From IMG/VR virus record IMGVR_UViG_3300038436_000063, positions 1 to 26,169 of that record: a stretch of DNA of 26,169 nucleotides, one strand, 5' to 3'. Below the pieces are notes generated by a model, which worked only from the letters and a program-made list of their open reading frames with translations, made no database searches and was not told the DNA's origin. This DNA comes from a virus. A program made the translations under genes and the position numbers. This document shows positions 2,763-14,425 of the stretch, piece after piece. Each line of letters starts with the position of its first letter. The stretch's first letter is position 1.

Positions 2763-3440
2763 TTACTCCTTTACCTCATCGAGTTCGATTTCCATTGCCA
2801 TCAGCGCCAGCGTCTGGGCATCCTTCTCCGCCTTCTGGTCGGTTTCGAGATACTCGCCGCCCGCGTCTTCTGGCGTGGGTGGGGTCTGCTGTTGCTGACG
2901 CAACTCTTCAACTTTTGATCGAGCGTTTGCGCTCGTCTGCGGATACGCGGGGAACGTCACCGGCCCCACGTCCATCAACTCATCGATAACTTGCACGCGC
3001 CGTAGAGGAATGCCATCATCTTGTACTTCCCATTTCTCCCCGTTCGGCGCCACGGTGAACATGAATGACGACCCGTCTGCATCATTTCGGCGCACCTTTT
3101 CATAAGCCGCCATTGCCTCGGGATCGTTCGGGTTAACGAAGATCGTATATTCCAGGCCTGCTTCGGCTCTATTCAACGTCATCGTGCCGCTTTTCGTGCG
3201 CCCCAGCAGTACCTTATGGTCGAACCGCCCGCGCACATCGAGAGTGCCCATGATCGTGTCGAGTGCGCCCGGCTCGATCAGCTCACGGAAAATTCCGATG
3301 CCCGGTTCCACCAACACTTCACTGATCGCGTTAAACACGGGCGCAATCCCCCGGATGATCGGGATCGGGTTGTCATCGCCGCTCATTTCAGCAACGACAT
3401 CCATCCCGATAAAACGTTTTTCGATACGATTGTTGTTCAT
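2763..3440 (-). CDS. Prohead protease, HK97 family (serine protease)
   Basis: This 225-residue protein should cleave the capsid scaffold domain and itself inside the prohead. The family pattern is clear: GIAPVFN near residue 31, ELIEPGALD near 53-61, the catalytic His in RFDHK (H75), the catalytic Ser in DGSSFMF (S124 or S125), and the conserved DVGPVTFPAYPQT block near the end of the catalytic domain. A Gln/Pro/Glu-rich C-terminal tail follows, probably a removable linker. The ATG overlaps the portal stop (ATGA at 3437-3440), so translation is probably coupled. The capsid gene follows after 5 bases. Confidence 0.93.
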   Translation of the reverse strand: MNNNRIEKRFIGMDVVAEMSGDDNPIPIIRGIAPVFNAISEVLVEPGIGIFRELIEPGALDTIMGTLDVRGRFDHKVLLGRTKSGTMTLNRAEAGLEYTIFVNPNDPEAMAAYEKVRRNDADGSSFMFTVAPNGEKWEVQDDGIPLRRVQVIDELMDVGPVTFPAYPQTSANARSKVEELRQQQQTPPTPEDAGGEYLETDQKAEKDAQTLALMAMEIELDEVKE

Positions 3441-4993
3441 GCAAGACTCCGATCTGCCATGATCTCAGGCCAGGTGTAGGTCATCAGGTTCACGTTCCCG
3501 TTCTGCACGTCCGCGCAATATTTTCGGGCCAGATCGCCTGCCAGGGTTTCCAGGTCGGCGTCCGACATAAACCGCGCAGACAGTGCCAGGTGCGCCTTCA
3601 GCGCCGGGACCAGTTGCATCACCACGAACTGGCTGTGGTCATCTCCTAGGAACTCCCTGCGCCATTCAGAGAGCTTCTGCGGGTTGTCCTTGAACCGTTT
3701 GCTGGCGGCATCGAGATCGTGGCTCTCCCGCCGCGCGATTCTCCCGAACACGTCCCGGTAGATCGGCAGCATCACCTCGCGCTGCGTAGCGGGCGCCATG
3801 TTCAACTGCACCAGCGGTTCGTCCATGTCCTCGCGCGGGTTCAGGTTCTCGAGCTCGCGCGCCTCGTTGCGTACCATCCAGCCTGTGGTGATTGCGCCGT
3901 TGTAGCCTTCTGTACGGGTTTTGAAATCGCCGCGCAGCAGGCCGTCGATCGCGTGCTCCACAAAATATTCCTTGCGTTCGCTCTTCGTCAGCAGTGACCG
4001 GTGGGCTTCCTGCTCCCAGTTCACGGTCCACGGCCGCACCGTGTGGACCGTGAAGCGGATCCCGAACTGCTCCACGCTGGCATACGTGGCGGCTTTGTCC
4101 GTCTCGTTGAGCATGTCCAGCGATATGCCCCAGATCCGTCCCACGTCTGCGATCCCGAATTTCATCAGGTCCAGCAGCATGATGTCCTGCGGCGAAAGTG
4201 TGATCGCGTGATACTTCAGGCCCTCTTCCAGGATGGCCAGTCGATGCTTATTAGTCAGTCCGCCGTGCCGGTCTTCCCAATCGCTTTCCAGGCGGCTCCA
4301 GGCCTTGTCGCTCAGCGCAGCATCTGTTTCCAGCACGCCGCGCGGCGTGGCATCGTTCTGGAAGAAACGCCCCATAAAATCCTGGGCGGCCAGGGAGATT
4401 CCGATTGATTCACTGGCTAACTGCACCGGCGACATTCCCCATAACCCGTTCTGGCTCAGCCACTTGATGTGGAAGATCCGCTCGGCGGGCAATCGCACAC
4501 CCTGCCCGCCTTCCGATTCGGGCAGGGTATAGAAATAAAAGAGCCTTCTGCTGCGCGGGTCCCGCTCCAGCCTAACCTTGTCTGGGTTCAGCGGCCAGAG
4601 CGCTTTGACACGCCCGCCGCCGTCGAATTCGATCTCAGAAAGGCCGTTCCCGCGGCTGGCCACATGCGCCGAGATTGTCCTGCGGTACGTAAACGCAGAC
4701 ATCTCCGGGTTTGCAGCATCGTGCAGGATGGGATAAAGGTAGTGGTCCGGCGCTTTTTCTTTGCCCCTCTTTAGCCTGCGGTACGTGAAGAAGGGCAGGC
4801 TCGCTTCGGTATCGGCAATCGTCCGGATGCACGCCAGGGCGCCGGTCACGCGCATCGCGGTATCCGGCGTCACCGTCACTCCCGCGGCGCTCTGCCCCCA
4901 CCCCCCAAGCCCTGCCACATACTCACGGAACCAGTCGGGCGGGTCCTGGGATGGGTGAAAACGCTTGTTCACCAGGGAAGCAGTCAAGGGCAT
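3437..4993 (-). CDS. Portal protein, HK97/SPP1-like family
   Basis: The product (518 residues from this start) forms the dodecameric ring at the head vertex through which DNA is packaged. Typical portal features include AMRVTGALACIRTIADTEASLPFFTYRR near the N-terminus, the RIFHIKW...GLWGMSPVQLASESIG stretch, LAILEEGLKYHAITLSPQD, and DMLNETDKAATYASVEQFGIRFTVHTVRPW. I chose the ATG at 4993, not the in-frame ATG at 5017: a GAGGAA ribosome site lies 8 bases upstream of 4993, and the ATG overlaps the previous stop as TAATG. The extra eight residues from 5017 are encoded by the ribosome site itself. The 3' end overlaps the protease by 4 bases. Confidence 0.93.
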   Translation of the reverse strand: MPLTASLVNKRFHPSQDPPDWFREYVAGLGGWGQSAAGVTVTPDTAMRVTGALACIRTIADTEASLPFFTYRRLKRGKEKAPDHYLYPILHDAANPEMSAFTYRRTISAHVASRGNGLSEIEFDGGGRVKALWPLNPDKVRLERDPRSRRLFYFYTLPESEGGQGVRLPAERIFHIKWLSQNGLWGMSPVQLASESIGISLAAQDFMGRFFQNDATPRGVLETDAALSDKAWSRLESDWEDRHGGLTNKHRLAILEEGLKYHAITLSPQDIMLLDLMKFGIADVGRIWGISLDMLNETDKAATYASVEQFGIRFTVHTVRPWTVNWEQEAHRSLLTKSERKEYFVEHAIDGLLRGDFKTRTEGYNGAITTGWMVRNEARELENLNPREDMDEPLVQLNMAPATQREVMLPIYRDVFGRIARRESHDLDAASKRFKDNPQKLSEWRREFLGDDHSQFVVMQLVPALKAHLALSARFMSDADLETLAGDLARKYCADVQNGNVNLMTYTWPEIMADRSLA

Positions 4994-5181
4994 TATTGTT
5001 TCCTCGTCGCTATCCACGTGGCCAGGTAGGAGGTGATCACGCTCTCCCCGGCCACCACGGCGCCCACCACAATCAGCGCCGTTGCTACGGAAACGTCCAG
5101 CGCCAGGCCGATGAAGAGCAGCAACAGACCCAGCCAGTAAGACCGTTCGCTCGGTTCACTGGAGCGCAGCCAGGCAATCAT
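4993..5181 (-). CDS. Small two-helix membrane protein, holin-like
   Basis: This 62-residue protein has two hydrophobic segments, roughly residues 15-28 (YWLGLLLLFIGLALDV) and 32-50 (VATALIVVGAVVAGESVIT), with a short charged tail (ATRKQ). Size and topology suit a small class II holin or a holin partner. It overlaps the preceding coiled-coil membrane protein by 4 bases (ATGA) and the portal start as TAATG, so the three are coupled. The pairing with an XhlA-like protein resembles the xhlA/xhlB lysis pair of PBSX-type prophages. Against this, it sits between structural genes and no endolysin is visible. Holin is an inference; membrane location is well supported. Confidence 0.6.
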   Translation of the reverse strand: MIAWLRSSEPSERSYWLGLLLLFIGLALDVSVATALIVVGAVVAGESVITSYLATWIATRKQ

Positions 5182-5432
5182 GGGGTACTAAGCGCCCTTA
5201 CCAACAAAAAGACCAGCAATGCCAGATCGATCAGCGAAACGAGCCCACCACCCATTGTGAGATACAGGATGAAGTTGAACTTTGTCGCGGCCTCCTCGAG
5301 CAGGCGTAGCCGCTTTTCGTGATCGTCGAGGTCCTTGCTCAGCCTGTCAATCTGCATTTGGACCATTCTGTTCTCCAGATCATCCAGCCTTTGATAATCA
5401 GTTGCACGTTTGATCTCGGGGTATTCTGGCAT
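5178..5432 (-). CDS. Coiled-coil membrane protein, XhlA-like
   Basis: From the ATG at 5432 this is 84 residues: a charged amphipathic coiled coil (about residues 14-50, YQRLDDLENRMVQMQ followed by DDHEKRLRLLEEAA), then one membrane segment (about 52-80). The combination matches the layout of XhlA hemolysin/holin accessory proteins. The frame is open to an ATG at 5543, but that stretch is a structured leader with an intrinsic terminator (5461-5502), so I take the internal start, which has GGAGGA about 11 bases upstream. Transcription probably starts at the consensus promoter at 5564-5591 and must read through the terminator. It overlaps the next membrane gene by 4 bases. Confidence 0.6.
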   Translation of the reverse strand: MPEYPEIKRATDYQRLDDLENRMVQMQIDRLSKDLDDHEKRLRLLEEAATKFNFILYLTMGGGLVSLIDLALLVFLLVRALSTP

Positions 5433-5460: not shown

Positions 5461-5557
5461 ACAAACAAAAGCGCCCGACGACCACAAAGGGTCGTCGGGC
5501 GCATCAGTTCCGACAAGCGTCCCGGCCTATGCCAGGACTGCATTTAGTTATACATCT
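5461..5557 (-). ncRNA. Structured leader RNA, copy 1 (hairpin plus terminator)
   Basis: Downstream of a consensus promoter the minus-strand transcript would contain, in order: an 8-bp hairpin (GTCCTGGC / GCCGGGAC, loop ATAG; 5519-5538), a conserved linker (GTCGGAA, one variable base, TGATGC), and a perfect 13-bp terminator hairpin (5471-5483 with 5490-5502) followed by TTTTGTTTG. A second copy lies at 12331-12411; the block 5519-5542 is identical to 12385-12408. Between copies a 1-base insertion shifts the reading frame, so conservation is at RNA or DNA level, not peptide level. It looks like an attenuator or riboswitch-like leader for the XhlA-like gene. I do not recognise it as a known riboswitch class. 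Confidence 0.6.
5471..5502 (-). terminator. Intrinsic terminator in leader RNA copy 1
   Basis: A perfect 13-bp GC-rich stem (5471-5483 / 5490-5502) with a 6-base loop is followed on the minus strand by TTTTGTTTG. It lies between the promoter at 5564-5591 and the gene at 5178-5432, so it would limit expression unless bypassed. Confidence 0.8.
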
Positions 5558-5563
5558 GTTCTA

Positions 5564-5591
5564 ATTATACCCGTGTAGAGCGGATTGTCAA
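5564..5591 (-). promoter_or_regulatory. Sigma70-type consensus promoter
   Basis: The minus strand carries TTGACA (5586-5591) and TATAAT (5564-5569) separated by 16 bases; both hexamers are perfect consensus. It lies immediately after a terminator (5602-5642) and just before leader RNA copy 1, so it should start the transcript for the XhlA-like, holin-like and head genes. The only other promoter of this quality in the window is that of the ribbon-helix-helix gene, also with 16-base spacing. Confidence 0.85.
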
Positions 5592-5601
5592 GAAATTAAA
5601 G

Positions 5602-5642
5602 GACAACGCCACGGCCTGAGGGGGGCAGGTCATGGCGTTGTC
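5602..5642. terminator. Bidirectional intrinsic terminator
   Basis: Arms 5602-5618 and 5626-5642 form a 17-position stem (10 perfect outer pairs, GACAACGCCA / TGGCGTTGTC) with one mismatch and one wobble. T-rich sequence follows in both directions (CTTTAATTTCTT on minus, ACTTTATATTTTA on plus). It ends the minus-strand terminase operon after the gene at 5675-5884 and insulates the next promoter. Confidence 0.75.
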
Positions 5643-6171: not shown

Positions 6172-7890
6172 TCATCCCAGCGTCCGGATTCCCCTCTTTT
6201 CGTAGACTGACTTCGCCTCCGGATGCCGCAGTGCCAGGTCGATAGCCATGATCAGCGCCACCATCCCATCGATCTTCTCCCGGCTGGCCGCCTTGTCGGG
6301 CTTGATATTGCCAGCTGGGTCCATCTTCGCAACCAGGTTGTCGGCCATCCAGGTCAATACCGGGTTGTTGCCGTGGACGATCTTTTTCGAGAGCACCAGG
6401 CGCTCCAGTTCCTTCATGGGTGGGTTCATCGAGGCGAATCCTTGCCCGAATTGCACCATCGTTGCGCCTTTTGCCTCCAGGACCTGTACCACGCGTGCCG
6501 CTCCCCAGCGGTCGAAGGCGATCTGGTCAATATCGAACGTGTCCAGGTCCTGCTCGACCTGCTCGAAGATCCATTCATAATCGACAACATTGCCAGGCGT
6601 GGCTTCGATGTAGCCTTCTTTGACCCACTGGGAGTAATGCACCCCGTCGTCACGCGAACGGATCAGCATATTGTCTTCCGGGATCCAAAACCGGCACAGC
6701 ACATAAATATTGTCATCCTCGTCGATGAAGGCCAGCACCCAGGCAGTAATATCCGATGTCGACGACAGATCCAGACCGCCATACGCTGTCATGCCCTTCA
6801 GCCGCTTTGGTAGATCGAGCGCTGGCACTTCGCCGCCGCACTTGCGCCATTCGTCCATCGGCATCCATTTGATCTCGCCTTGTACCCACACATTCAGCTC
6901 GCGCCGCAGGAAGTTGTTTAACGCGGCGGGCATCTGCCCCGCGCGTTTGGCCTTCATCTGCATATCATCCAGATACTTGGAGACGCCCAGGTTTGGATTT
7001 GCCTTGATCCAGACGGACTCGTCGCGCCAATCGTCGCCCTCGTCCAACGTGAAGATGATTCCGAACCAGCTGTCGTCCTCGAAGCTGGCATCCTTCCAGC
7101 CCTCGAGCACCTTACGCGTGTATTCGTGCTTCTCGTAGCACACGCTGCGTCGGTCGATCCCGGCTGTCGTGATCGCAATGATCATCGGTTGCTCGCGCGA
7201 GCCGGTCGCCGTCTCGAGCACGTCCCACATCTCGCGTGATTTCCACGCATGCAGCTCGTCCGCAATGATTGCGTGCACATTCAATCCATCGGTGCTATCC
7301 GAGTCGGCACCCAGGGGTTCATATTTACTGGCGGTTTCATCAAGGTTCAAATTGTCTTTGACAATGTTGATGTATTTCTTCAGGGTCGCATTTTTGCGAA
7401 CCATGCGGATGGCTTCTTTGTGAACGATTCGTGCCTGGTCCCGTTTCGTAGCTGCGGAATACACCTCGGCGCCCGGCTCTCCATCTGCAAACGCGAGATT
7501 TAATCCCAGCCCTGCGGCCTTAGTGCTTTTACCATTCTTGCGCGCCACTTCCTCGTACAGGACCCGGAAGCGCCGCATGCCATCCACCTTGCGCTTCCAG
7601 CCAAACGCCACCCAGACGATAAACTGTTGCCACGGTTCGAGAACGATCAATTCCCCTTTGCCACGCCCCCACTTGCCTTTAGAATGCCGCAGCATTCCGA
7701 TAAACTGGAGTTTCTGCTCCGCTTCCTCCGTATCGAAATACAGACCACGTTCGTGGCCGTGCTCCAAATCATGCACGTGCCGCTCACAGGCCAATATCAC
7801 CCACTTGCAAGCGATGATTTTGCCGCTGATTACGTCCCGCGCATACTGCTCCGCGGGGTGCAGGGTCTGCTTCTTTGATGACCTGGCCAC
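6172..7890 (-). CDS. terL: Terminase large subunit (TerL)
   Basis: The 572-residue packaging motor pumps DNA into the prohead and cuts the concatemer. The ATPase half shows a Walker A (ARKNGKS, residues 116-122), a Walker B (AIIADE, 207-212) and a coupling motif (ITTAG, 240-244). The nuclease half shows the three acidic positions of the RNase H fold: D374 in GLDLSS, D460 in AFDRWG and D541 in KIDGMVAL. The length is usual for this family. The start is a GTG at 7890, one base after the small-subunit stop, with only a distant GAGG site, so translation is probably coupled. It acts with one or both of the small subunits and the HNH protein upstream. Confidence 0.95.
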   Translation of the reverse strand: MARSSKKQTLHPAEQYARDVISGKIIACKWVILACERHVHDLEHGHERGLYFDTEEAEQKLQFIGMLRHSKGKWGRGKGELIVLEPWQQFIVWVAFGWKRKVDGMRRFRVLYEEVARKNGKSTKAAGLGLNLAFADGEPGAEVYSAATKRDQARIVHKEAIRMVRKNATLKKYINIVKDNLNLDETASKYEPLGADSDSTDGLNVHAIIADELHAWKSREMWDVLETATGSREQPMIIAITTAGIDRRSVCYEKHEYTRKVLEGWKDASFEDDSWFGIIFTLDEGDDWRDESVWIKANPNLGVSKYLDDMQMKAKRAGQMPAALNNFLRRELNVWVQGEIKWMPMDEWRKCGGEVPALDLPKRLKGMTAYGGLDLSSTSDITAWVLAFIDEDDNIYVLCRFWIPEDNMLIRSRDDGVHYSQWVKEGYIEATPGNVVDYEWIFEQVEQDLDTFDIDQIAFDRWGAARVVQVLEAKGATMVQFGQGFASMNPPMKELERLVLSKKIVHGNNPVLTWMADNLVAKMDPAGNIKPDKAASREKIDGMVALIMAIDLALRHPEAKSVYEKRGIRTLG

Positions 7891-7891
7891 G

Positions 7892-8380
7892 TCACTGTTT
7901 TGCCTCTACCTTTACGTTTCGATTTCCGAACAGGAATCCAGCCATTTCCTCCTCCTCGCTCGGTGTGTTAACCTGTACCCTCGTACGGCTGCTGGGCGTC
8001 ATCCCAAATTCCGCATAGAACTTGATAATTTGGTCCATACTGCGCTTCTTGATTGCCACCCAGGGATTCTGGTACAGTCCGCCCTTATCCGAGATAATGA
8101 CTTCACCTTCCTTGGTCAACTTGTTGCAGGCTTTTACATAATCCGCGTATGCGGTGCAGCACACAGCCAGTGCAGCCCGGTCCAGCTTGGAAATCATTCC
8201 TAACACTTTCAATTCCTTTGTGATACGGGCCCATTCCTGTCGCGCTACTCCCTTCAGGTGATTCGGGCAAGAAGGCAGATCAACCGCGGGCCTGGGCTCC
8301 TTTTTATTCAGAGCGCGCTTCCCTGGGTTGCCCTCCAGCTCCTTCATAGCTGTTGGCTTTGGCTTTCTACCCCTCGTCAT
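7892..8380 (-). CDS. Terminase small subunit B, P27 family
   Basis: This 162-residue protein has the P27-type pattern: TRGRKPKPTAMKELEGNPGKRALN at the N-terminus, a central helical region (HLKGVARQEWARITKELKVLG...LDRAALAVCCTAYADYVKA), and the C-terminal AEFGMTPSSRTRV signature. Small subunits recognise the packaging site and load DNA onto TerL, which is encoded directly downstream. The ATG overlaps the methyltransferase stop as TAATG and has GGAGGA 4 bases upstream. A paralogue (10927-11403) is encoded on the other side of the two methyltransferase genes, so the phage carries two P27-type small subunits. Confidence 0.92.
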   Translation of the reverse strand: MTRGRKPKPTAMKELEGNPGKRALNKKEPRPAVDLPSCPNHLKGVARQEWARITKELKVLGMISKLDRAALAVCCTAYADYVKACNKLTKEGEVIISDKGGLYQNPWVAIKKRSMDQIIKFYAEFGMTPSSRTRVQVNTPSEEEEMAGFLFGNRNVKVEAKQ

Positions 8381-9603
8381 TATTCCTCCAAAATTGGATT
8401 TTCCTTCGTCATCTGCGACCAGCGCTCGAGCACCACCGCCGCATATTTCGGATCGTTGTCCATCGTGCGGCAGATGCGTCCAAGCCGTTCGCAGGCGATC
8501 AACGTGGTGCCAGAACCGGCGAACAGGTCCATCACGATTGCGTCTGGCTGGCTGGAATTCGTCAGCGATCGTTCCACCAGGTCCAATGGTTTCGTGGTCG
8601 GGTGATCTTCACTCTTTTTCGGTCGGTCGATCAACCACACGTCCGACTGTTTGCGGTCCTCCAACTCCACCAGTCGCGGCGCGCGGTTATCCCAGCCGTA
8701 CCACATCGGTTCGTATTGCGTGTGATAATCCTTGCGGGAGAGCACCAGGCTGTCCTTGACCCAGATGATGGTGCTCGACCAGTGGAAGCCAATCTTGCGC
8801 AACGATGCATCGACGACCGGCCATTCCTGCCCCCCCATGACGAGATAGATCAGCGCGCCTGGCTGGCAAAAGCTCCGGAATTGTGTGACGAACAGGTCAA
8901 CGAAGATGTGAAATTTCTCCCCGAGGTCATCGTTGTTCATCGTGCGGTCACCATAAGCTGGATGATCACCACCGCCATAATTGACGTTCCAGGGTGGGTC
9001 GCTCCAGATCAACTGGGCGAGATCGTTCCCCATCAAGCGCTTCACCTCGGACCGTTGGGTGGAGTCCCCGCACATCAGCCGGTGCGCGCCCAGCCGCCAC
9101 ACCTGCCCAACCTGCACCTGCCACTTCGCAAGCAGTTCATCAGCCCGGCCCAGCTCCGCGCCAGGGTCCTGGGCTATGGGTTTCGTTGCCGTGGAAACGC
9201 CTACCAGGTCGTCCAACTCCGCAGGCTCGAACCCCGTGAAGAGATCGCCGGTGGTGCTGGCAATCTCGCGCAAGACCACTTCATCCCAGCGGCTGAATTC
9301 ACCCACGCGGTTATCGGCAATCCCAAACGCCGCCGCGGTCGCCGGGTCATCCTCCACGAAGACCACGGCCAGGTGAGACCAGCCCAGGGACTTCGCCGCT
9401 CGATAGGTCCCGTTGCCTGCCTCGATCTTCCCCTCCTGCAGACGGTTGGCCACGATGGGTTTACGCTGTCCGTAGGCTTTCAGCGACGCAGCAATCCGCG
9501 CCACATCGTGACCCACGCGGGCATTGGCAGGGTCTTCGTGCAGGCTGTCGATCGGCACAGCCAGCGGCCGTAGGGATTCAGCGATGTAGGGAAGATTGTT
9601 CAT
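8380..9603 (-). CDS. ParB-domain / DNA methyltransferase fusion B (DPPW type)
   Basis: Starting at the ATG at 9603, which overlaps the preceding stop (ATGA), the protein is 407 residues. Residues 15-130 form a ParB/Sulfiredoxin-like domain (IDSLHEDPANAR, GQRKPIVANR, IEAGNGTYRAA, ADNRVGEFSRWD). Residues 165-395 are an AdoMet-dependent methyltransferase with motif IV DPPW (202-205), HPTTKP (334-339) and the AdoMet motif FAGSGT (361-366). This motif order is that of beta-class N6-adenine or N4-cytosine enzymes; DPPW favours N6-adenine. It probably modifies phage DNA, perhaps against host restriction or at packaging sites. The frame extends to 9690, but without a better start. The ParB domain closely resembles that of the next gene. 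Confidence 0.9.
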   Translation of the reverse strand: MNNLPYIAESLRPLAVPIDSLHEDPANARVGHDVARIAASLKAYGQRKPIVANRLQEGKIEAGNGTYRAAKSLGWSHLAVVFVEDDPATAAAFGIADNRVGEFSRWDEVVLREIASTTGDLFTGFEPAELDDLVGVSTATKPIAQDPGAELGRADELLAKWQVQVGQVWRLGAHRLMCGDSTQRSEVKRLMGNDLAQLIWSDPPWNVNYGGGDHPAYGDRTMNNDDLGEKFHIFVDLFVTQFRSFCQPGALIYLVMGGQEWPVVDASLRKIGFHWSSTIIWVKDSLVLSRKDYHTQYEPMWYGWDNRAPRLVELEDRKQSDVWLIDRPKKSEDHPTTKPLDLVERSLTNSSQPDAIVMDLFAGSGTTLIACERLGRICRTMDNDPKYAAVVLERWSQMTKENPILEE

Positions 9604-10934
9604 AACACCTTTGGCGTTTCGCCAGTCATCAAATGCCAGCGTTCCAGCGAAGCGGCAACATAACCCGGGTCCAGTTCCACGGCCCGGCATACTCGGTTCA
9701 GGATTTCGCAGGCGATCAGCGTTGTTCCCGAACCGCAGAACGGCTCGAAGACGATCTCATCGGGCTGGGTGTAAAGTAGGATATGGCGGGCTGGGATCTC
9801 CAGCGGGAAGGCTGCCACGTGGCCGTGCGCGCTCGCTGTGCCTTTTACATCATTCCAGTAAGAGCGCAGCGCCCACTTCTGTTTTGTCCGTTCCTGGCCT
9901 CGGTTCTTGCCTACGCGGTTATAGAAGGTTTCCAGCAGGTTCACGTCCTGCTCGTTGAGCACGTCGGTGAAGTCCATCTCAGCGCCATCGTCGTGTTCGA
10001 ACGTGCCAATGAATTCTGAGTGCTGGTCGATCAGGTCCGTCTTTGGTGAGATGGATGCAATCTGCCCCTCTTTCAGCCAGTGGCGGATGTGGCGCAAGTT
10101 CCAGCCCAGTTGGTAGAACGCCAACATCCACTTGTCGATCAGCAGCAGCACCTGACGCTTCTTGCGTTTTTCGAAGCTGGTTGTAAAACCGGTCCCGGTG
10201 TTGATCACAATTCGGGACTCATCCACGCGCACTACAGCGGCGATGATTGCCGCGGCGCGACCGATGAACTGGTCGATCTCGGCTTCGCTCTTCTCGCGCT
10301 CGTACTCCTTGCCCACCCAGTAAGGCGGAGATGTGACTGAAAGGGTGGCGATTCCCTGCCAGCCCAATGCCTCGACGTTTAGGGTCGTTGCGTCCGCGCA
10401 GGTAATGACATGTCTACCCAGTTGCCAGGTCTGCCCGGGCTGGGTCCCCCACTTCTCGCGCAGCTCGCCTAGTTTATTGTCATCATCCTGTGGGCCCGGG
10501 TCCACCATTAGGCCGCCGCCGCGCTCGCCGAGCAGGTCGCGCAGTTCCGCTTCGGTAAAGCCGGTGAATAAATCATCGACGGTCGGGATCAACGCGCCGA
10601 GCGCGTCCAGGTCCCATGCGCTCAGCTCGCTGAGGCGATTGTCTGCGATGCCATAAGCTGCTGCGGTGGCTGGATCATCTTCCACGAAGACAACAGCGAT
10701 ATGAGTCCAGCCGAGTTTCTTCGCCGCAAGCCAGGTCCCGTTACCGGCTTCGATCTTTCCACCCTGCAGGCGGTTTGCAATGATGGGTTTACGCTGACCG
10801 TACAGCTTCAGCGAAGTTGCAATCCGATCAAGCGCATGATTGGTGCGTGTATTGGCCGGGTCAATGTGCAACTCATCGATCACGAATGCAAGACTACGAA
10901 GGCCCTCGGCAATGTAGGTTAAATCATCAGTCAT
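9600..10934 (-). CDS. ParB-domain / DNA methyltransferase fusion A (TSPPY type)
   Basis: This 444-residue protein has the same design as its neighbour: ParB-like domain (residues 16-135; IDELHIDPANTR, GQRKPIIANR, IEAGNGTWLAA, ADNRLSELSAWD) then a methyltransferase with motif IV TSPPY (201-205) and AdoMet motif FCGSGT (399-404), plus HVAAFPLEIP (372-381). TSPPY is typical of N4-cytosine enzymes, so this copy and copy B probably modify different bases. The ParB halves are nearly superimposable while the catalytic halves are divergent. It overlaps TerS-A by 8 bases and copy B by 4, so the block is one translational unit. The target sequence cannot be read from the gene. Confidence 0.9.
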   Translation of the reverse strand: MTDDLTYIAEGLRSLAFVIDELHIDPANTRTNHALDRIATSLKLYGQRKPIIANRLQGGKIEAGNGTWLAAKKLGWTHIAVVFVEDDPATAAAYGIADNRLSELSAWDLDALGALIPTVDDLFTGFTEAELRDLLGERGGGLMVDPGPQDDDNKLGELREKWGTQPGQTWQLGRHVITCADATTLNVEALGWQGIATLSVTSPPYWVGKEYEREKSEAEIDQFIGRAAAIIAAVVRVDESRIVINTGTGFTTSFEKRKKRQVLLLIDKWMLAFYQLGWNLRHIRHWLKEGQIASISPKTDLIDQHSEFIGTFEHDDGAEMDFTDVLNEQDVNLLETFYNRVGKNRGQERTKQKWALRSYWNDVKGTASAHGHVAAFPLEIPARHILLYTQPDEIVFEPFCGSGTTLIACEILNRVCRAVELDPGYVAASLERWHLMTGETPKVL

Positions 10935-11403
10935 TGATTCTCACTCTTTGTCCAAATAACATCTGCTCCAGTTCCTGATCTGGATTTATCAGGTCTGCTT
11001 TCACACGCGAGCGGCTGGAGGGTGTCATTCCGAATTCCGCGCCCAGCTTGTTGAGTTGTTCGAGCGCCCGGTTCGCAATCGAGAGATAGGGATTCTGGAT
11101 GATATTCCCTGCCGCGGTTTTGATGATCTCACCTTTTTCGCGGACCATCCGCTCTGCTTTGACCCATCGCGCGTAGATGACACAATACATGGCGAGCGCG
11201 TCCACGTCGATTGTTGTTACCAGCCCCAGTGGATGCAGTTCGCGCACAACCAGCTTCCACTTGGCTTTTTCCTCGTCACTTAAGTGCTCCGGAGGCCGCG
11301 GCCTGACCACTTTCGGCCGAGGTTCCGCGTGATTCAAGGCGCGTTTGCCTGGGTTCCCGGCCAGCACCTTGACCGCTGTTGGCTTGGGTTTGCGGCCTCG
11401 CAT
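10927..11403 (-). CDS. Terminase small subunit A, P27 family
   Basis: This 158-residue protein shares the P27 pattern with TerS-B: MRGRKPKPTAVKVLAGNPGKRALN at the start and AEFGMTPSSRSRV near the end. It differs in the middle and in the tail. It is likely a second DNA-recognition subunit for packaging, or a relic of a recombination event. The upstream sequence has only a G-rich site (GGCGG), and an 85-base gap separates it from the HNH gene. In HK97-type phages the cos region often lies near terS and HNH genes, so that gap is a candidate location, though I see no diagnostic motif. Confidence 0.88.
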   Translation of the reverse strand: MRGRKPKPTAVKVLAGNPGKRALNHAEPRPKVVRPRPPEHLSDEEKAKWKLVVRELHPLGLVTTIDVDALAMYCVIYARWVKAERMVREKGEIIKTAAGNIIQNPYLSIANRALEQLNKLGAEFGMTPSSRSRVKADLINPDQELEQMLFGQRVRIND

Positions 11404-11488: not shown

Positions 11489-11863
11489 TTAGACCGCCCT
11501 ACCCCTCCGACGACGGCTGCCATCATGTGCCGTCTTGTAGTTGTTGCAGTCCACACAGAGTGACTGGTAGTTCGTTTCATCGTCTTTGCCTCCGAGTTTG
11601 AGAGGAATGATATGGTCAACAATCTTTGCCTTGACCTTCTGGCCTTGATGCATGCCGTATAAATCCACACACCACGGATGTTCCGTAAGCCAGGCATCTC
11701 GTTTCTTTTTCCATTCGTGACCGTAACCACGTCGCGATGCAGACGGCCGTATTGCCTCATTCGTGCGGTCACGTGGGAGCAGATGTTTAGCACACCTGCT
11801 CCCGCTGTAGACTAGCTCAGGACAGCCAGGCTCGGCGCATGGCCGTGGTGGTCGACGTGGCAT
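11489..11863 (-). CDS. HNH endonuclease
   Basis: The 124-residue protein has an N-terminal zinc-type cluster (C9, C14, C24, H27) and a C-terminal HNH motif: IVDHIIPLKLGG (D83-H84), N98 and LCVDCNNYK (C103, C106, K110). In many HK97-like phages an HNH protein encoded beside the terminase genes is needed with TerL and TerS for specific cos cleavage; the position here fits that role. Its ATG overlaps the preceding stop as TAATG, with a GGCAGG-type site just upstream. A basic tail (SRRRRGRAV) may contact DNA. A homing endonuclease is less likely because the gene sits inside the packaging operon. Confidence 0.9.
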   Translation of the reverse strand: MPRRPPRPCAEPGCPELVYSGSRCAKHLLPRDRTNEAIRPSASRRGYGHEWKKKRDAWLTEHPWCVDLYGMHQGQKVKAKIVDHIIPLKLGGKDDETNYQSLCVDCNNYKTAHDGSRRRRGRAV

Positions 11864-12300
11864 TACCTGCCGATGTACCCGTGACTGAACGCCTGCACTC
11901 CCAACCCGCGTACCGCGAATTGATGGATGCGTTTGGTAGAGACCAACTGCACGATATACCCAAAGACCAGGGTAAGAAATTGTGCAATGATCATCAGGTG
12001 ACTATCGATGGCAGGAAAGTCAACGCTGGGATCGACGGCCAGGGCAACCGCAATACCAACAATGCCGAGCAGATTGAGCCCAGCGGACCATTTGCCGGCG
12101 GCGCCTTCAACAATAACGCCAGCCCATTTCAGCACATCGATCAACAGGCTGATCAGCGCCTGAGCGCCGACCATTGCCCCAGCGATGGCCAGCACCATCC
12201 CCAGCTCAACGCCGAACAACAGCATGACTGCGGAGAAGACAGCGACCAGGCCGAGCGGCCAGGCTAAGGTCTTCAGGATATCTTCGAGACTGAGTTTCAC
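11863..12300 (-). CDS. Integral membrane protein, holin candidate
   Basis: The 145-residue protein has about four hydrophobic segments (roughly residues 12-30, 33-58, 70-92 and 100-122) and a cytosol-type basic C-terminus. It could be a holin or another phage membrane protein; no catalytic motif is visible. The start has AAGGAG 8 bases upstream. It is the first gene after leader RNA copy 2 and heads the HNH-terminase-methyltransferase operon. The same leader also precedes the XhlA-like membrane gene at 5178-5432, so the two membrane genes may be controlled together. Confidence 0.65.
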   Translation of the reverse strand: MKLSLEDILKTLAWPLGLVAVFSAVMLLFGVELGMVLAIAGAMVGAQALISLLIDVLKWAGVIVEGAAGKWSAGLNLLGIVGIAVALAVDPSVDFPAIDSHLMIIAQFLTLVFGYIVQLVSTKRIHQFAVRGLGVQAFSHGYIGR

Positions 12301-12330: not shown

Positions 12331-12411
12331 AAACAAAAACACCCGACGCCATCACAGCGCCGGGTGCATCATTTCCGACAGGGTGTCCCGGCCTATGCCA
12401 GGACTGCAAAC
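12331..12411 (-). ncRNA. Structured leader RNA, copy 2 (hairpin plus terminator)
   Basis: The same arrangement as 5461-5557: an 8-bp hairpin (12385-12392 with 12397-12404) in a 24-base block identical to copy 1, a linker GTCGGAA, one variable base, TGATGC, then a terminator stem (12339-12349 with 12357-12367, loop of 7) followed by TTTTTGTTT on the minus strand. Relative to copy 1 the terminator stem has a G-C to A-T pair exchange, and the loop differs completely, so pairing is kept while sequence changes. It lies between a TATAAT box at 12453-12458 and the holin-like gene at 11863-12300. Confidence 0.6.
12339..12367 (-). terminator. Intrinsic terminator in leader RNA copy 2
   Basis: An 11-bp stem (12339-12349 / 12357-12367, with two G-T pairs in the minus-strand RNA) is followed on the minus strand by TTTTTGTTT. 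It stands in the leader of the holin-like gene. Confidence 0.75.
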
Positions 12412-12452
12412 GATATTCAATTGTTGATCAGATCGTCCTCCTTTCAACTCCT

Positions 12453-12480
12453 ATTATACACGTTCAAAGTGTCAGCCGAA
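12453..12480 (-). promoter_or_regulatory. Probable promoter with consensus -10 box
   Basis: TATAAT (12453-12458, minus strand) is perfect, but the region 16-17 bases upstream (TTCGGC, 12475-12480) is a poor -35 match, so activity may need an activator. A strong AAAGGAGG motif follows the -10 box without a convincing start codon. By position it drives leader RNA copy 2 and the packaging operon. Confidence 0.5.
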
Positions 12481-12503: not shown

Positions 12504-12776
12504 CTAGGGATTGCGCGGACAATGCCAGCGATGATCAATTAGGCTTTCAGAGCCACAATCGGGGCAGCCTGTAACCGCGCATCCGGCTGCGCGGATTTTG
12601 CCTAGCACATCTGTCGAAATGATACATTTGCGATGCAAATACAGATGATAAGGTTTGTCGCCACAATCAGCCATGCCGTACAGGTCAATTGTCTCTCCGT
12701 CTATGCGAGTGTGACACTCTGGACAATATCTTACTCTACGAGGCCTTTTTATTACTCTTACCGAAATTATTGGCAT
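12504..12776 (-). CDS. Small zinc-ribbon protein
   Basis: I chose the ATG at 12776 (90 residues, MPIISVRVIKRPRRVRYCPECHTR...), with AAGGA about 8 bases upstream; the open frame extends further but without a good start. Two Cys pairs are visible: CPEC near residue 18 and CPDC near residue 71, with a Cys/His-containing middle (HLYLHRKC) and a C-terminal HRWHC. This suits a zinc ribbon or treble-clef fold, likely binding nucleic acid or protein. It is the last gene of the initiator transcript. Specific function unknown. Confidence 0.65.
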   Translation of the reverse strand: MPIISVRVIKRPRRVRYCPECHTRIDGETIDLYGMADCGDKPYHLYLHRKCIISTDVLGKIRAAGCAVTGCPDCGSESLIDHRWHCPRNP

Positions 12777-12790
12777 CCTTTTTTCCTTTC

Positions 12791-13171
12791 CTAAGCATCC
12801 GGACGCCGCGGATAGCGCTCCATCAACCGCAGATACGCCTCTGTCGGCGCCTCCGTCCAATCCACTGTCTTGCCGCACACAGTGCAGATGATCCCGTTGC
12901 ACTCGCCAATGAGTGCCCGCGCCCGCGCCGGGGGCAGCTCTGCCGGCTCGCAGCCACGCATAACAGACTGCTCGTACAGGTACAGCGCCGAGATCGTCCC
13001 TGTGCCGTGCGCCACGCGGCGCACCTCGCCCAGGACATGCGCATGCTTCTGCGGGGATGGCCAGAACCTGCGTTTGTTTGCCTGCATGGAGACCTCCTGA
13101 TCAGCGGCGTTGTTTTCTGATGACACGGGCGCCACCCAATGATATTTTAGAGCTGCTGTAGTGCTGGGCAT
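12791..13171 (-). CDS. Small protein of unknown function (start uncertain)
   Basis: The frame supports two starts. The ATG at 13171 (126 residues) has AGGAG 7 bases upstream and lies right after the preceding stop, matching the tight packing of the operon. The ATG at 13087 (98 residues, MQANKRRFWPSPQKHAHVLG...) has an even better AGGAGGT site. Either way the C-terminal part contains CTVCGKTVDW, a single Cys pair, and no membrane segment. The protein is basic near the N-terminus. I cannot assign a function; two products from one gene are possible. Confidence 0.55.
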   Translation of the reverse strand: MPSTTAALKYHWVAPVSSENNAADQEVSMQANKRRFWPSPQKHAHVLGEVRRVAHGTGTISALYLYEQSVMRGCEPAELPPARARALIGECNGIICTVCGKTVDWTEAPTEAYLRLMERYPRRPDA

Positions 13172-13172
13172 A

Positions 13173-13436
13173 TCATTGCTCCTGTACAATCCCGGTGATC
13201 TGATAGAGCCCGATTTCACGCTCTTTCTGGGTGCGCAAATTGCGCACGCGCACCCGCGTGGTGCTGGGAATACCACAGATGCCCACCACAACCCCGTAAT
13301 ATTCTCGCTCGTTGGCCTGGTATTGCAGCTTTGTGCCAGGCGTCAACATCGAGGATGCCACATTGTAGATATTCCCGTCGATGCGCTTGCGCTCGGACAG
13401 CAGCCGGCGCAGCACGGCCAGATTGAGATCTGTCAT
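13173..13436 (-). CDS. Small beta-rich protein of unknown function
   Basis: Starting at the ATG at 13436, which overlaps the initiator stop (ATGA), the product has 87 residues. A short N-terminal helix (LAVLRRLLSERKRID) is followed by a region with alternating beta pattern (GTKLQYQANEREYYGVVVGICG, then TRVRVRNLRTQKEREIGLYQITGIV), which suggests a small barrel or SH3-like domain. Coupling to the initiator gene suggests a replication accessory role, but that is only positional. Confidence 0.6.
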   Translation of the reverse strand: MTDLNLAVLRRLLSERKRIDGNIYNVASSMLTPGTKLQYQANEREYYGVVVGICGIPSTTRVRVRNLRTQKEREIGLYQITGIVQEQ

Positions 13437-14425
13437 GCTTCCTCCGTTTCCGTAGCAACGATAAACTCGACGCGCAGCTGGGCGTCCCCCAGCAGCCTGG
13501 CCAGCGCCGGCTGGACCCGCGTGACCAGGCGGTCGCGCAGCCAGTCGGCGCCGTACACATTGCGGCATCCGATGCGGAGCACGCCGCCATCGAAACAGAC
13601 CGGGTAGGTGCCCAGCACCCAGGTCTCATACTCGACCTTGCGCAGGTCCTGCCGCAACTGCTCCTGGACCGTTATCCAGGCATCGTAAACGGCGGCCTCC
13701 ACAGTGCAGACATACTCGGTCACGCGCACGATCTCCGGCTCGGAATCAGGCTCGACATCCACCACGTCCGGCTCGGCCAGCCCCAGCGCGACCAGGTACT
13801 CATTAGGCAAAAAAGCCAGTGGGTCGGCCTGGTATTTCTTGTCCGGGAGCGCCCGCTGGGCCTGCAGCCGCCGGTAGACTAGCGCCCACGGATGACTGAT
13901 CTTGCCTTGTTTGTGCTGGTCGTAGGCCTGGGCCAGCCATGCGATCACATAGTCCGCATCCAGGCTCTCGCTCAGGCCAAAGCTGATCACTTCGTGTCCT
14001 GGGAATAAAATTCCCGTTTCAGACAGGATTGTGCTGGATGTGCAATTTTTGAGCATCCCCTTCTTTCTTTCTTTCATGTCTTTTAAGTCTTTAGAGTCTT
14101 TTCTTAAAGACTCTTTAAGAGACGGATGCTCAACTTTTGAGCATCCAGGATTGTCCAATTGGAGCAGCATCTGCCGCCCGCCATCAGCCAGGATGTAACC
14201 GCTGTTGTGGTCCACTTTGATGACAGCCTCGAGCACGGCCAGCTTGCGCAGCGCCGTCGCTGCTGTATTGCGCGAAATCTGTACGTTCTCGGCGATCTCG
14301 CTTTGCGTGACGGGTCGATCCCCGCGCGTGCGCATGTAGAGCAGGATGATGACCAGCGGCGCCGCTTTGTAGAGCGCGTGCCAGCGCACCTGGTCAGATA
14401 GCGGGAGCACAGACAGGCCAGTCAT
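13433..14425 (-). CDS. Replication initiator: winged helix plus DnaA domain-I-like region
   Basis: The 330-residue protein has three parts. Residues 20-88 form a winged helix-turn-helix (RPVTQSEIAENVQISRNTAATALRKLAVLEAVIKV). Residues 92-135 are a Lys/Ser-rich linker. Residues 248-323 resemble the N-terminal domain of DnaA (YDAWITVQEQLRQ, YETWVLGTYPVCF, GGVLRIGCRNVYGADWLRDRL, ALARLLG, LRVEFIV), the part that contacts helicase and other initiation proteins. There is no AAA+ ATPase. I infer an origin-binding initiator that recruits host helicase, functionally like lambda O. The linker-coding DNA carries paired palindromes and an AT-rich patch (14036-14146), a candidate origin. The start overlaps the preceding gene (ATGA). 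Confidence 0.75.
   Translation of the reverse strand: MTGLSVLPLSDQVRWHALYKAAPLVIILLYMRTRGDRPVTQSEIAENVQISRNTAATALRKLAVLEAVIKVDHNSGYILADGGRQMLLQLDNPGCSKVEHPSLKESLRKDSKDLKDMKERKKGMLKNCTSSTILSETGILFPGHEVISFGLSESLDADYVIAWLAQAYDQHKQGKISHPWALVYRRLQAQRALPDKKYQADPLAFLPNEYLVALGLAEPDVVDVEPDSEPEIVRVTEYVCTVEAAVYDAWITVQEQLRQDLRKVEYETWVLGTYPVCFDGGVLRIGCRNVYGADWLRDRLVTRVQPALARLLGDAQLRVEFIVATETEEA
14036..14146. other. Candidate replication origin inside the initiator gene
   Basis: Two 23-bp palindromes, 14036-14058 and 14124-14146, match at 20 of 23 positions; each is two 10-base arms (GGATGCTCAA-type and TTGAGCATCC) around 3 bases. Between them lies a 65-base pyrimidine/AT-rich segment containing further inverted repeats (AGAGTCTTT / AAAGACTCT at 14093-14114 and the palindrome CTCTTTAAGAG at 14111-14121). 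A 9-base direct repeat (CAGGATTGT) also flanks the block (14024-14032, 14146-14154). The palindromes fall in different reading frames of the gene, so their identity is not explained by protein repeats. The arrangement mirrors initiator-gene origins such as lambda ori in gene O. Confidence 0.6.

Follow-up and report, generated by a model that had tools for sequence, protein, structure and literature searches.

The 26,169-base virus record IMGVR_UViG_3300038436_000063, analysed here over its whole length and called the window, contains two copies of a leader RNA that probably works as a cis-acting transcription attenuator, that is, as an antitermination switch placed before two late operons. As judged from sequence comparison, each copy would be OFF by default and would be turned ON by the capture of a pseudoknot, the capturing agent probably being the protein product of a linked gene, called gene q below.

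Results

Both elements are located on the minus strand. Copy 1 (minus 5591-5461) is called element B and consists of a promoter, a conserved leader RNA and an intrinsic terminator. Copy 2 (minus ~12460-12329), called element A, has the same three parts, with the leader proper at 12408-12329. Their features are the following.

5564..5591, minus: promoter B, TTGACA-16-TATAAT, 12/12 consensus bases; position kept in most B elements
5539..5542, minus: copy 1, P0 5' strand TGCA; covaries with TGCG 5503-5500
5519..5538, minus: copy 1, stem P1, GUCCUGG-CAUAGG-CCGGGAC; covarying, double-sided changes in 7/7 pairs
5510..5514, minus: copy 1, P2 5' strand, linker GUCGG; covaries with CCGAC 5498-5494 (terminator 5' arm)
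5500..5503, minus: copy 1, P0 3' strand TGCG; overlaps the base of the terminator; covariation
5471..5502, minus: copy 1, intrinsic terminator, 13 bp stem-loop; covariation; T-tract 5470-5461
12453..12460, minus: promoter A, extended -10 TGTATAAT, from sequence; recurs upstream of A elements
12437..12445, minus: GAAAGGAGG in the A leader, STAB-SD-like, without an ORF behind it
12405..12408, minus: copy 2, P0 5' strand TGCA; pairs with TGCA 12368-12365
12385..12404, minus: copy 2, stem P1; covariation
12375..12379, minus: copy 2, P2 5' strand, linker GUCGG; pairs with CCGGC 12363-12359
12339..12367, minus: copy 2, intrinsic terminator; T-tract 12338-12329

An earlier note on this DNA had described a perfect sigma70 promoter at copy 1, which is indeed present at 5591-5564 with all 12 consensus bases, followed by a hairpin, a linker and a 13-bp terminator, all of which were found at minus 5538-5471 (the P1 stem having 7-8 bp). 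The same note regarded copy 2 as a repeat of the whole unit. This holds for the leader, the linker and the terminator (12408-12329), but not for the promoter, which has no clear -35 and instead shows the extended -10 TGTATAAT and then GAAAGGAGG; the A and B promoters are of different type. In the A leaders of many relatives GAAAGGAGG lies directly 3' of the extended -10, with no ORF, or one of 2-3 codons, behind it. The sequence resembles STAB-SD, the mRNA stabiliser of cry3A (PMC4113751). The B leaders have no ribosome-binding site of this kind.

Within the window there are exactly two occurrences of the 20-base hairpin, with none expected from shuffles even when 3 mismatches are allowed, and the two copies fold with stabilities of z = -5.7 and -5.6 relative to shuffles.

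We now turn to the homologues of the leader RNA, which were gathered from contigs with a related terminase and then by scanning viral contigs for the pattern. Parsing by structure yielded 55 clear distinct members, aligned as A2, from which the covariance model R1 was built with P1 and the terminator alone as structure, P0 and P2 not being entered as pairs. The search with R1 finds additional members, and more than 60 distinct homologues are at hand. Two members are weak or uncertain, L291 (G290) and L292 (G179); the covariation tally omits L291 as well as the truncated L020, and includes L292 despite its poor fit. In L020 (2831-2912) element A has no terminator 5' arm, while the linker and the 3' arm remain; if the model presented below is right, this element would be permanently ON.

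An exact scan of viral contigs for the 20-mer gave no match, because the P1 loop varies. Among genome contigs the pattern matched 94 times, and only L271 and L272 are real. The former is assigned to a Bacteroidetes bin, but its elements score the same as those of the phage L019, and it looks misbinned. No Rfam 15 covariance model matches the window at the gathering score, the best sub-threshold one being Pxr with 23 of 80 bits. Likewise, none of the annotated phage records matches the RNA or the gene q protein, and a literature search that covered few of the subscription journals yielded no paper on this RNA. By these searches the RNA is previously undescribed.

Most RNA-bearing phage records longer than ~16 kb carry the element exactly twice, the usual distance being 6-8 kb. 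Two full copies are present in G303 to G314, G317, G319 and others, and a single one on the searched strand in G315, G316 and G321-G324, some of which are fragments. G306 has a spacing of 3.3 kb. The two copies of G310 are near both ends of the record, a placement that would fit a permuted circular genome. All four records with more distant terminases (G325-G328) were found to have no copy.

Next, the covariation will be discussed. For P1 and the terminator in A2, 96.0% of the cells are paired and 16 of the 20 pairs show double-sided changes. None of 500 shuffles reaches any of the five measures used, and slid controls give at most 49%. The earlier statement that the terminator stem keeps its pairing despite sequence change is thus confirmed, P1 and the terminator covarying strongly across the homologues. 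The same note had proposed a search for homologues with covariation beyond the terminator, and this is what the collection displays: every P1 pair covaries, and the conservation extends past the terminator.

Two helices, P2 and P0, can be added to the structure described before. P2 is formed by the linker and the 5' arm of the terminator. It is paired to 92.4% over 50 distinct elements, compared to a shuffle maximum of 86.4%, and to at most 61.6% when the partner is slid by 1-4 bases; its exchange types include GUCGG/CCGAC, UUCGG/CCGAA, GACGG/CCGUC, GAUGG/CCAUC and GCUGG/CCAGC. The linker, GUCGGAA-C-UGAUGC in copy 1, had been noted as a kept sequence (GTCGGAA-n-TGATGC). Conserved it is, but not as mere sequence, since it constitutes a pairing strand. 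P0 joins NGCA, just before P1, to UGCN at the terminator base. It is paired to 84.0% over 50 distinct elements, compared to a shuffle maximum of 80%, and to at most 46% when slid by 1-4. The helix is short (4 bp) and shares positions with the base of the terminator, and in the UGAGC variants one of its pairs is lost if no 2-nt bulge is permitted. Its pair types are UGCA/UGCA, CGCA/UGCG and GGCA/UGCC, and whole helices are replaced in GGUU/AACC, AGUG/CACG and GGCU/AGCC. None of 5,000 shuffles reaches the observed values for P2 or P0, but as the homologues are related the shuffles overstate the independence, and the helix swaps and the independent set described next are the better evidence. A few imperfectly parsed rows (e.g. 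L012:937, L297:9629) make the figures lower, not higher.

The independent set consists of 16 elements reached via the gene q protein. They played no part in proposing P0 or P2, and they were located by R1, in which these helices are not modelled as pairs. P2 was found to form 79 of 80 pairs (reached by 3 of 20,000 shuffles) and P0 60 of 64 (reached by 0 of 20,000), with the strands hand-picked from the sequences and only their order checked, so that some selection is possible. The exchanges GUUGG/CCAAC, GGUGG/CCACC, GCCGG/CCGGC and UGCG/CGCG are new in this set.

P0 and P2 cross, and both are incompatible with the complete terminator. That they make up an H-type pseudoknot, with P1 within its first loop and with the terminator excluded, is well supported by the comparisons, and the comparative evidence speaks in the same way for P0, P1, P2, the terminator and their mutual exclusion. 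In nested folding the mean probability of P2 is 0.74 in transcripts that end before the 3' arm, and falls to 0.00 when the whole leader is present.

As to the genes, element A stands before the holin-like/HNH/terminase operon and element B between terminase and portal, with cargo genes sometimes intervening. This placement holds even where TerL matches at only ~30% identity.

12791..13087, minus: gene q, 98-aa uncharacterised protein; candidate regulator, family upstream of A elements
11863..12300, minus: first gene of the terminase operon, holin-like by appearance; starts 28 nt after element A
6172..7890, minus: terminase large subunit, in the A operon
5178..5429, minus: first ORF of the structural operon; starts 28 nt after element B
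3437..5017, minus: portal gene of the structural operon (phrog_12, E 3e-108)
7892-8380 and 10927-11403, minus: two terminase-small-subunit genes
8380-9690 and 9600-10934, minus: two ParB/methyltransferase-like genes

Neither the holin-like gene nor the ORF at 5178..5429, called XhlA-like in the earlier note, has a family match. In 26/26 A elements the first late gene has a ribosome-binding site and begins, at its start codon, 16-36 nt after the element. This gap leaves no space for another promoter, which means that the A operon can be transcribed only across the terminator, be it from promoter A or from further upstream. The suggestion that one control serves two late operons would agree with the comparative evidence on both copy number and position, as the copies precede both operons in every relative complete enough to judge.

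Two further observations concern this region. The small-subunit and ParB/methyltransferase-like genes lie within an apparent tandem duplication at minus 7892-11403, an arrangement that recurs in many relatives. A second conserved hairpin is located at minus 5600-5640, between the terminase operon and element B, and also in L006, L023, L029, L087 and others. Its arms typically end GGGUG ... UCACCC around five or six C, and while the stem sequence changes, the C-run loop is kept. It accompanies 26 of the 51 non-A elements (in one of them, L065, with a 4-pair stem only) and none of the 26 A elements, the background of C5+TC being 0.019 per 280 nt. A terminator, a processing site and a packaging site are candidate roles.

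We now turn our attention to gene q. When genes were clustered across 16 phages with the element and 2 controls, its family came next in spread after terminase and portal, with no member in the 2 control phages. A profile search places a member upstream, on the same strand, of 26/26 A elements that have upstream sequence (the one in L058 being weak, E 0.006), mostly at 18-60 nt and at a maximum of ~2.5 kb. In the opposite direction, a scan of viral contigs with the protein only gave 12 new contigs, 9 of them with the RNA; two of the others end within 800 nt of gene q, and L356 has no RNA in 6 kb. One of the nine, L346/L358, has element B only. At ~6300 in L346/L358 and ~6310 in L347, a short, membrane-protein-like gene comes immediately after gene q, without promoter or RNA; element A seems to have been deleted, while element B remains in L358. 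Among 301 genomes of the host order discussed below, 8 have gene q and 7 of these the RNA, three of the seven only in a diverged form that a closer search brought out; in the eighth the sequence ends 1.25 kb downstream. The separation is ~15.5 kb, on the same strand, in G277. Comparative evidence of this kind shows a linkage between gene q and the RNA.

The residues M1, H17, G20, C68, C71 and W77 are invariant in 25 aligned members, which suggests a zinc site. These 25 members match no family in Pfam-A, gene q has no PHROG match, and the members contain no known antiterminator or RNA-binding domain. The AlphaFold2 model (pLDDT 79.5) consists mostly of strands with a C-terminal helix. The fold search gave no informative PDB match, the best being VIA with Z 2.0, and one nameless viral predicted structure, A0A1P8DJL1, at E 1.5e-3; the want of a match is no evidence against any function.

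Two other ORFs were considered as regulators, the zinc-ribbon one at 12504-12770 and that at 13173-13568. They are near element A in only some relatives, and gene q is therefore preferred. The former is an 88-aa zinc-ribbon-like ORF on the minus strand between gene q and element A, and is seen in few relatives.

Finally, a genome of Candidatus Villigracilaceae, a family of Anaerolineales, Chloroflexota, has a prophage-like pair of elements within a contig of 340 kb. The RNA is present in 8 of 152 genomes of the family and in 6 of the 301 genomes of the order, where most occurrences are pairs arranged as in the phages, and in a sample of 400 genomes of the phylum only in the centre genome itself. 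The phage family with the paired RNA looks to infect Anaerolineales, and a temperate Anaerolineales phage is the best explanation for the carrier of the switch.

Discussion

The attenuator that the earlier note had guessed at gains support from these results, and the alternative pairing offers a concrete mechanism for it. The polymerase would start at the promoter and P1 would be made first. As the 5' arm of the terminator emerges, the linker would pair with it (P2) and NGCA with UGCN (P0), to yield the H-type pseudoknot. If nothing holds the pseudoknot, the 3' arm would displace it, the terminator would form, an RNA of ~90-130 nt would be released and the late genes would be OFF. Capture of the pseudoknot by a trans factor would instead keep the 5' arm occupied, and the polymerase would read through into both operons at once, holin-like/HNH/terminase (A) and portal/protease/capsid (B). 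Since the stability of the terminator far exceeds that of the pseudoknot, a stabilising factor must be assumed. Its likeliest identity is the gene q protein, encoded just before element A, because of its position and linkage. That this protein binds the RNA, in which direction the switch works and that it sets lytic timing is what we infer, and gene q may be conserved beside element A for another reason.

Another option is that the same switch answers to a host molecule (a metabolite, an ion, a ribosomal protein or a Nus factor), as a borrowed riboswitch or host-factor attenuator that times lysis and assembly. A pseudoknot overlapping the 5' arm of a terminator is a common riboswitch layout, and in the fluoride, preQ1 and ZTP types it is mutually exclusive with an overlapping intrinsic terminator, just as covariation indicates for the P2/P0 fold. 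The retention of the RNA where terminases match at ~30% identity is also as expected for an unchanging ligand, and the host range is apparently confined to one order. However, the RNA has no Rfam match, it precedes late phage genes, for which metabolite control is atypical, and it is tightly linked to a protein gene, gene q, rather than to a metabolic pathway. Its rarity in the hosts, with 6/301 genomes in the order and 1/400 in the phylum sample, mostly in phage layout, also disfavours a host-wide riboswitch. We consider a host ligand unlikely, although it is the strongest of the competitors.

The nascent leader could also modify the RNA polymerase by itself and suppress termination without a protein factor, as put RNAs do. 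These are ~70 nt long with two stem-loops, lie on early operons and have no dedicated protein (PMC9378689). As in HK022, there are two copies per phage, the cis RNA lies just downstream of promoters, and two hairpins (P1, P2) are possible. Here, however, the elements precede terminase and portal operons and not early ones. The second hairpin uses the terminator's own 5' arm, whereas put does not include the terminator it acts on, and constitutive antitermination would render a built-in terminator pointless. A put-like action is accordingly improbable.

Slightly less probable still is a trans-acting small RNA whose promoter and terminator are those of the unit, with only an incidental relation to the late operons that follow. 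The compact promoter-RNA-terminator unit has the right form, and the STAB-SD-like sequence of the A leaders could stabilise such a product. Yet the two copies have fixed operon positions, the 16-36 nt before the first late gene in 26/26 A elements leave no promoter space, and a plain small RNA has no need for a conserved fold that excludes the terminator.

Ribosome-coupled attenuation by a leader peptide, which could draw on the ribosome-binding sequence GAAAGGAGG of the A leaders and on a TTG-started frame readable through the copy 2 leader, is rejected as most improbable, since the B leaders have no such site, no start codon is shared, no conserved open frame is seen in the leaders, and homologues vary in the length of loop and linker by 1 to several nt, indels that break every frame, as the earlier note had said of the two copies.

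Returning to a switch governed by the gene q protein, we can compare it with known antitermination systems. In lambda, Q is the last early gene, just before the late promoter. The present arrangement resembles that of the lambdoid Q (PR'/tR') in that a late promoter is followed by a terminator to be read through and that the regulator gene lies directly upstream. In Q-type systems the terminator comes just after the late promoter (PMC6606751, PMC7171158) and the loading of Q takes place at a sigma-dependent pause by way of a site in the promoter DNA (PMC6606751). Here, in contrast, what is conserved is an RNA that overlaps the terminator and follows promoters of differing type, and there are two units per genome. 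The Q families PF06530, PF03589 and PF06323 gave no match for the 25 gene q members in the Pfam-A search, even at E 0.1.

In the LoaP/dfn system of Bacillus, a leader hairpin and an intrinsic terminator precede two operons that are served by one dedicated protein (PMC12691694), and a small leader hairpin with a terminator is here, too, common to two operons. LoaP is, however, a NusG paralogue, and no NusG or KOW match was found among the gene q members. Its hairpin is a distinct one with a UNCG loop, located upstream of the terminator, whereas the anti-terminator here is made from a terminator arm and the P1 loops are not UNCG but variable (CAUAGG, UGUAGA, CUGGU, UUGAU and others). By the features tested, the system would be a late-gene attenuator that works with an antiterminator and belongs to none of the Q, LoaP and put families.

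Conclusion

It is quite possible that the elements represent a new class of late-gene control, in which a dedicated protein, small, zinc-finger-like and from a new family, recognises a pseudoknot built in part from the terminator and opens both operons at once through two matched switches. Recognition would then concern the nascent RNA and not, as for Q, the promoter DNA, and no persistent modification of the polymerase would be needed. Little is known about late-gene timing in the phages of Chloroflexota, which are abundant in wastewater sludge and sediments, and from sequence alone the analysis provides a switch that can be put to the test, together with its candidate regulator and whole regulon. 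If the proposal is true, an RNA-pseudoknot route to late antitermination would stand beside N, Q, P7, LoaP and put, and the compact two-part switch would be usable as a genetic part.
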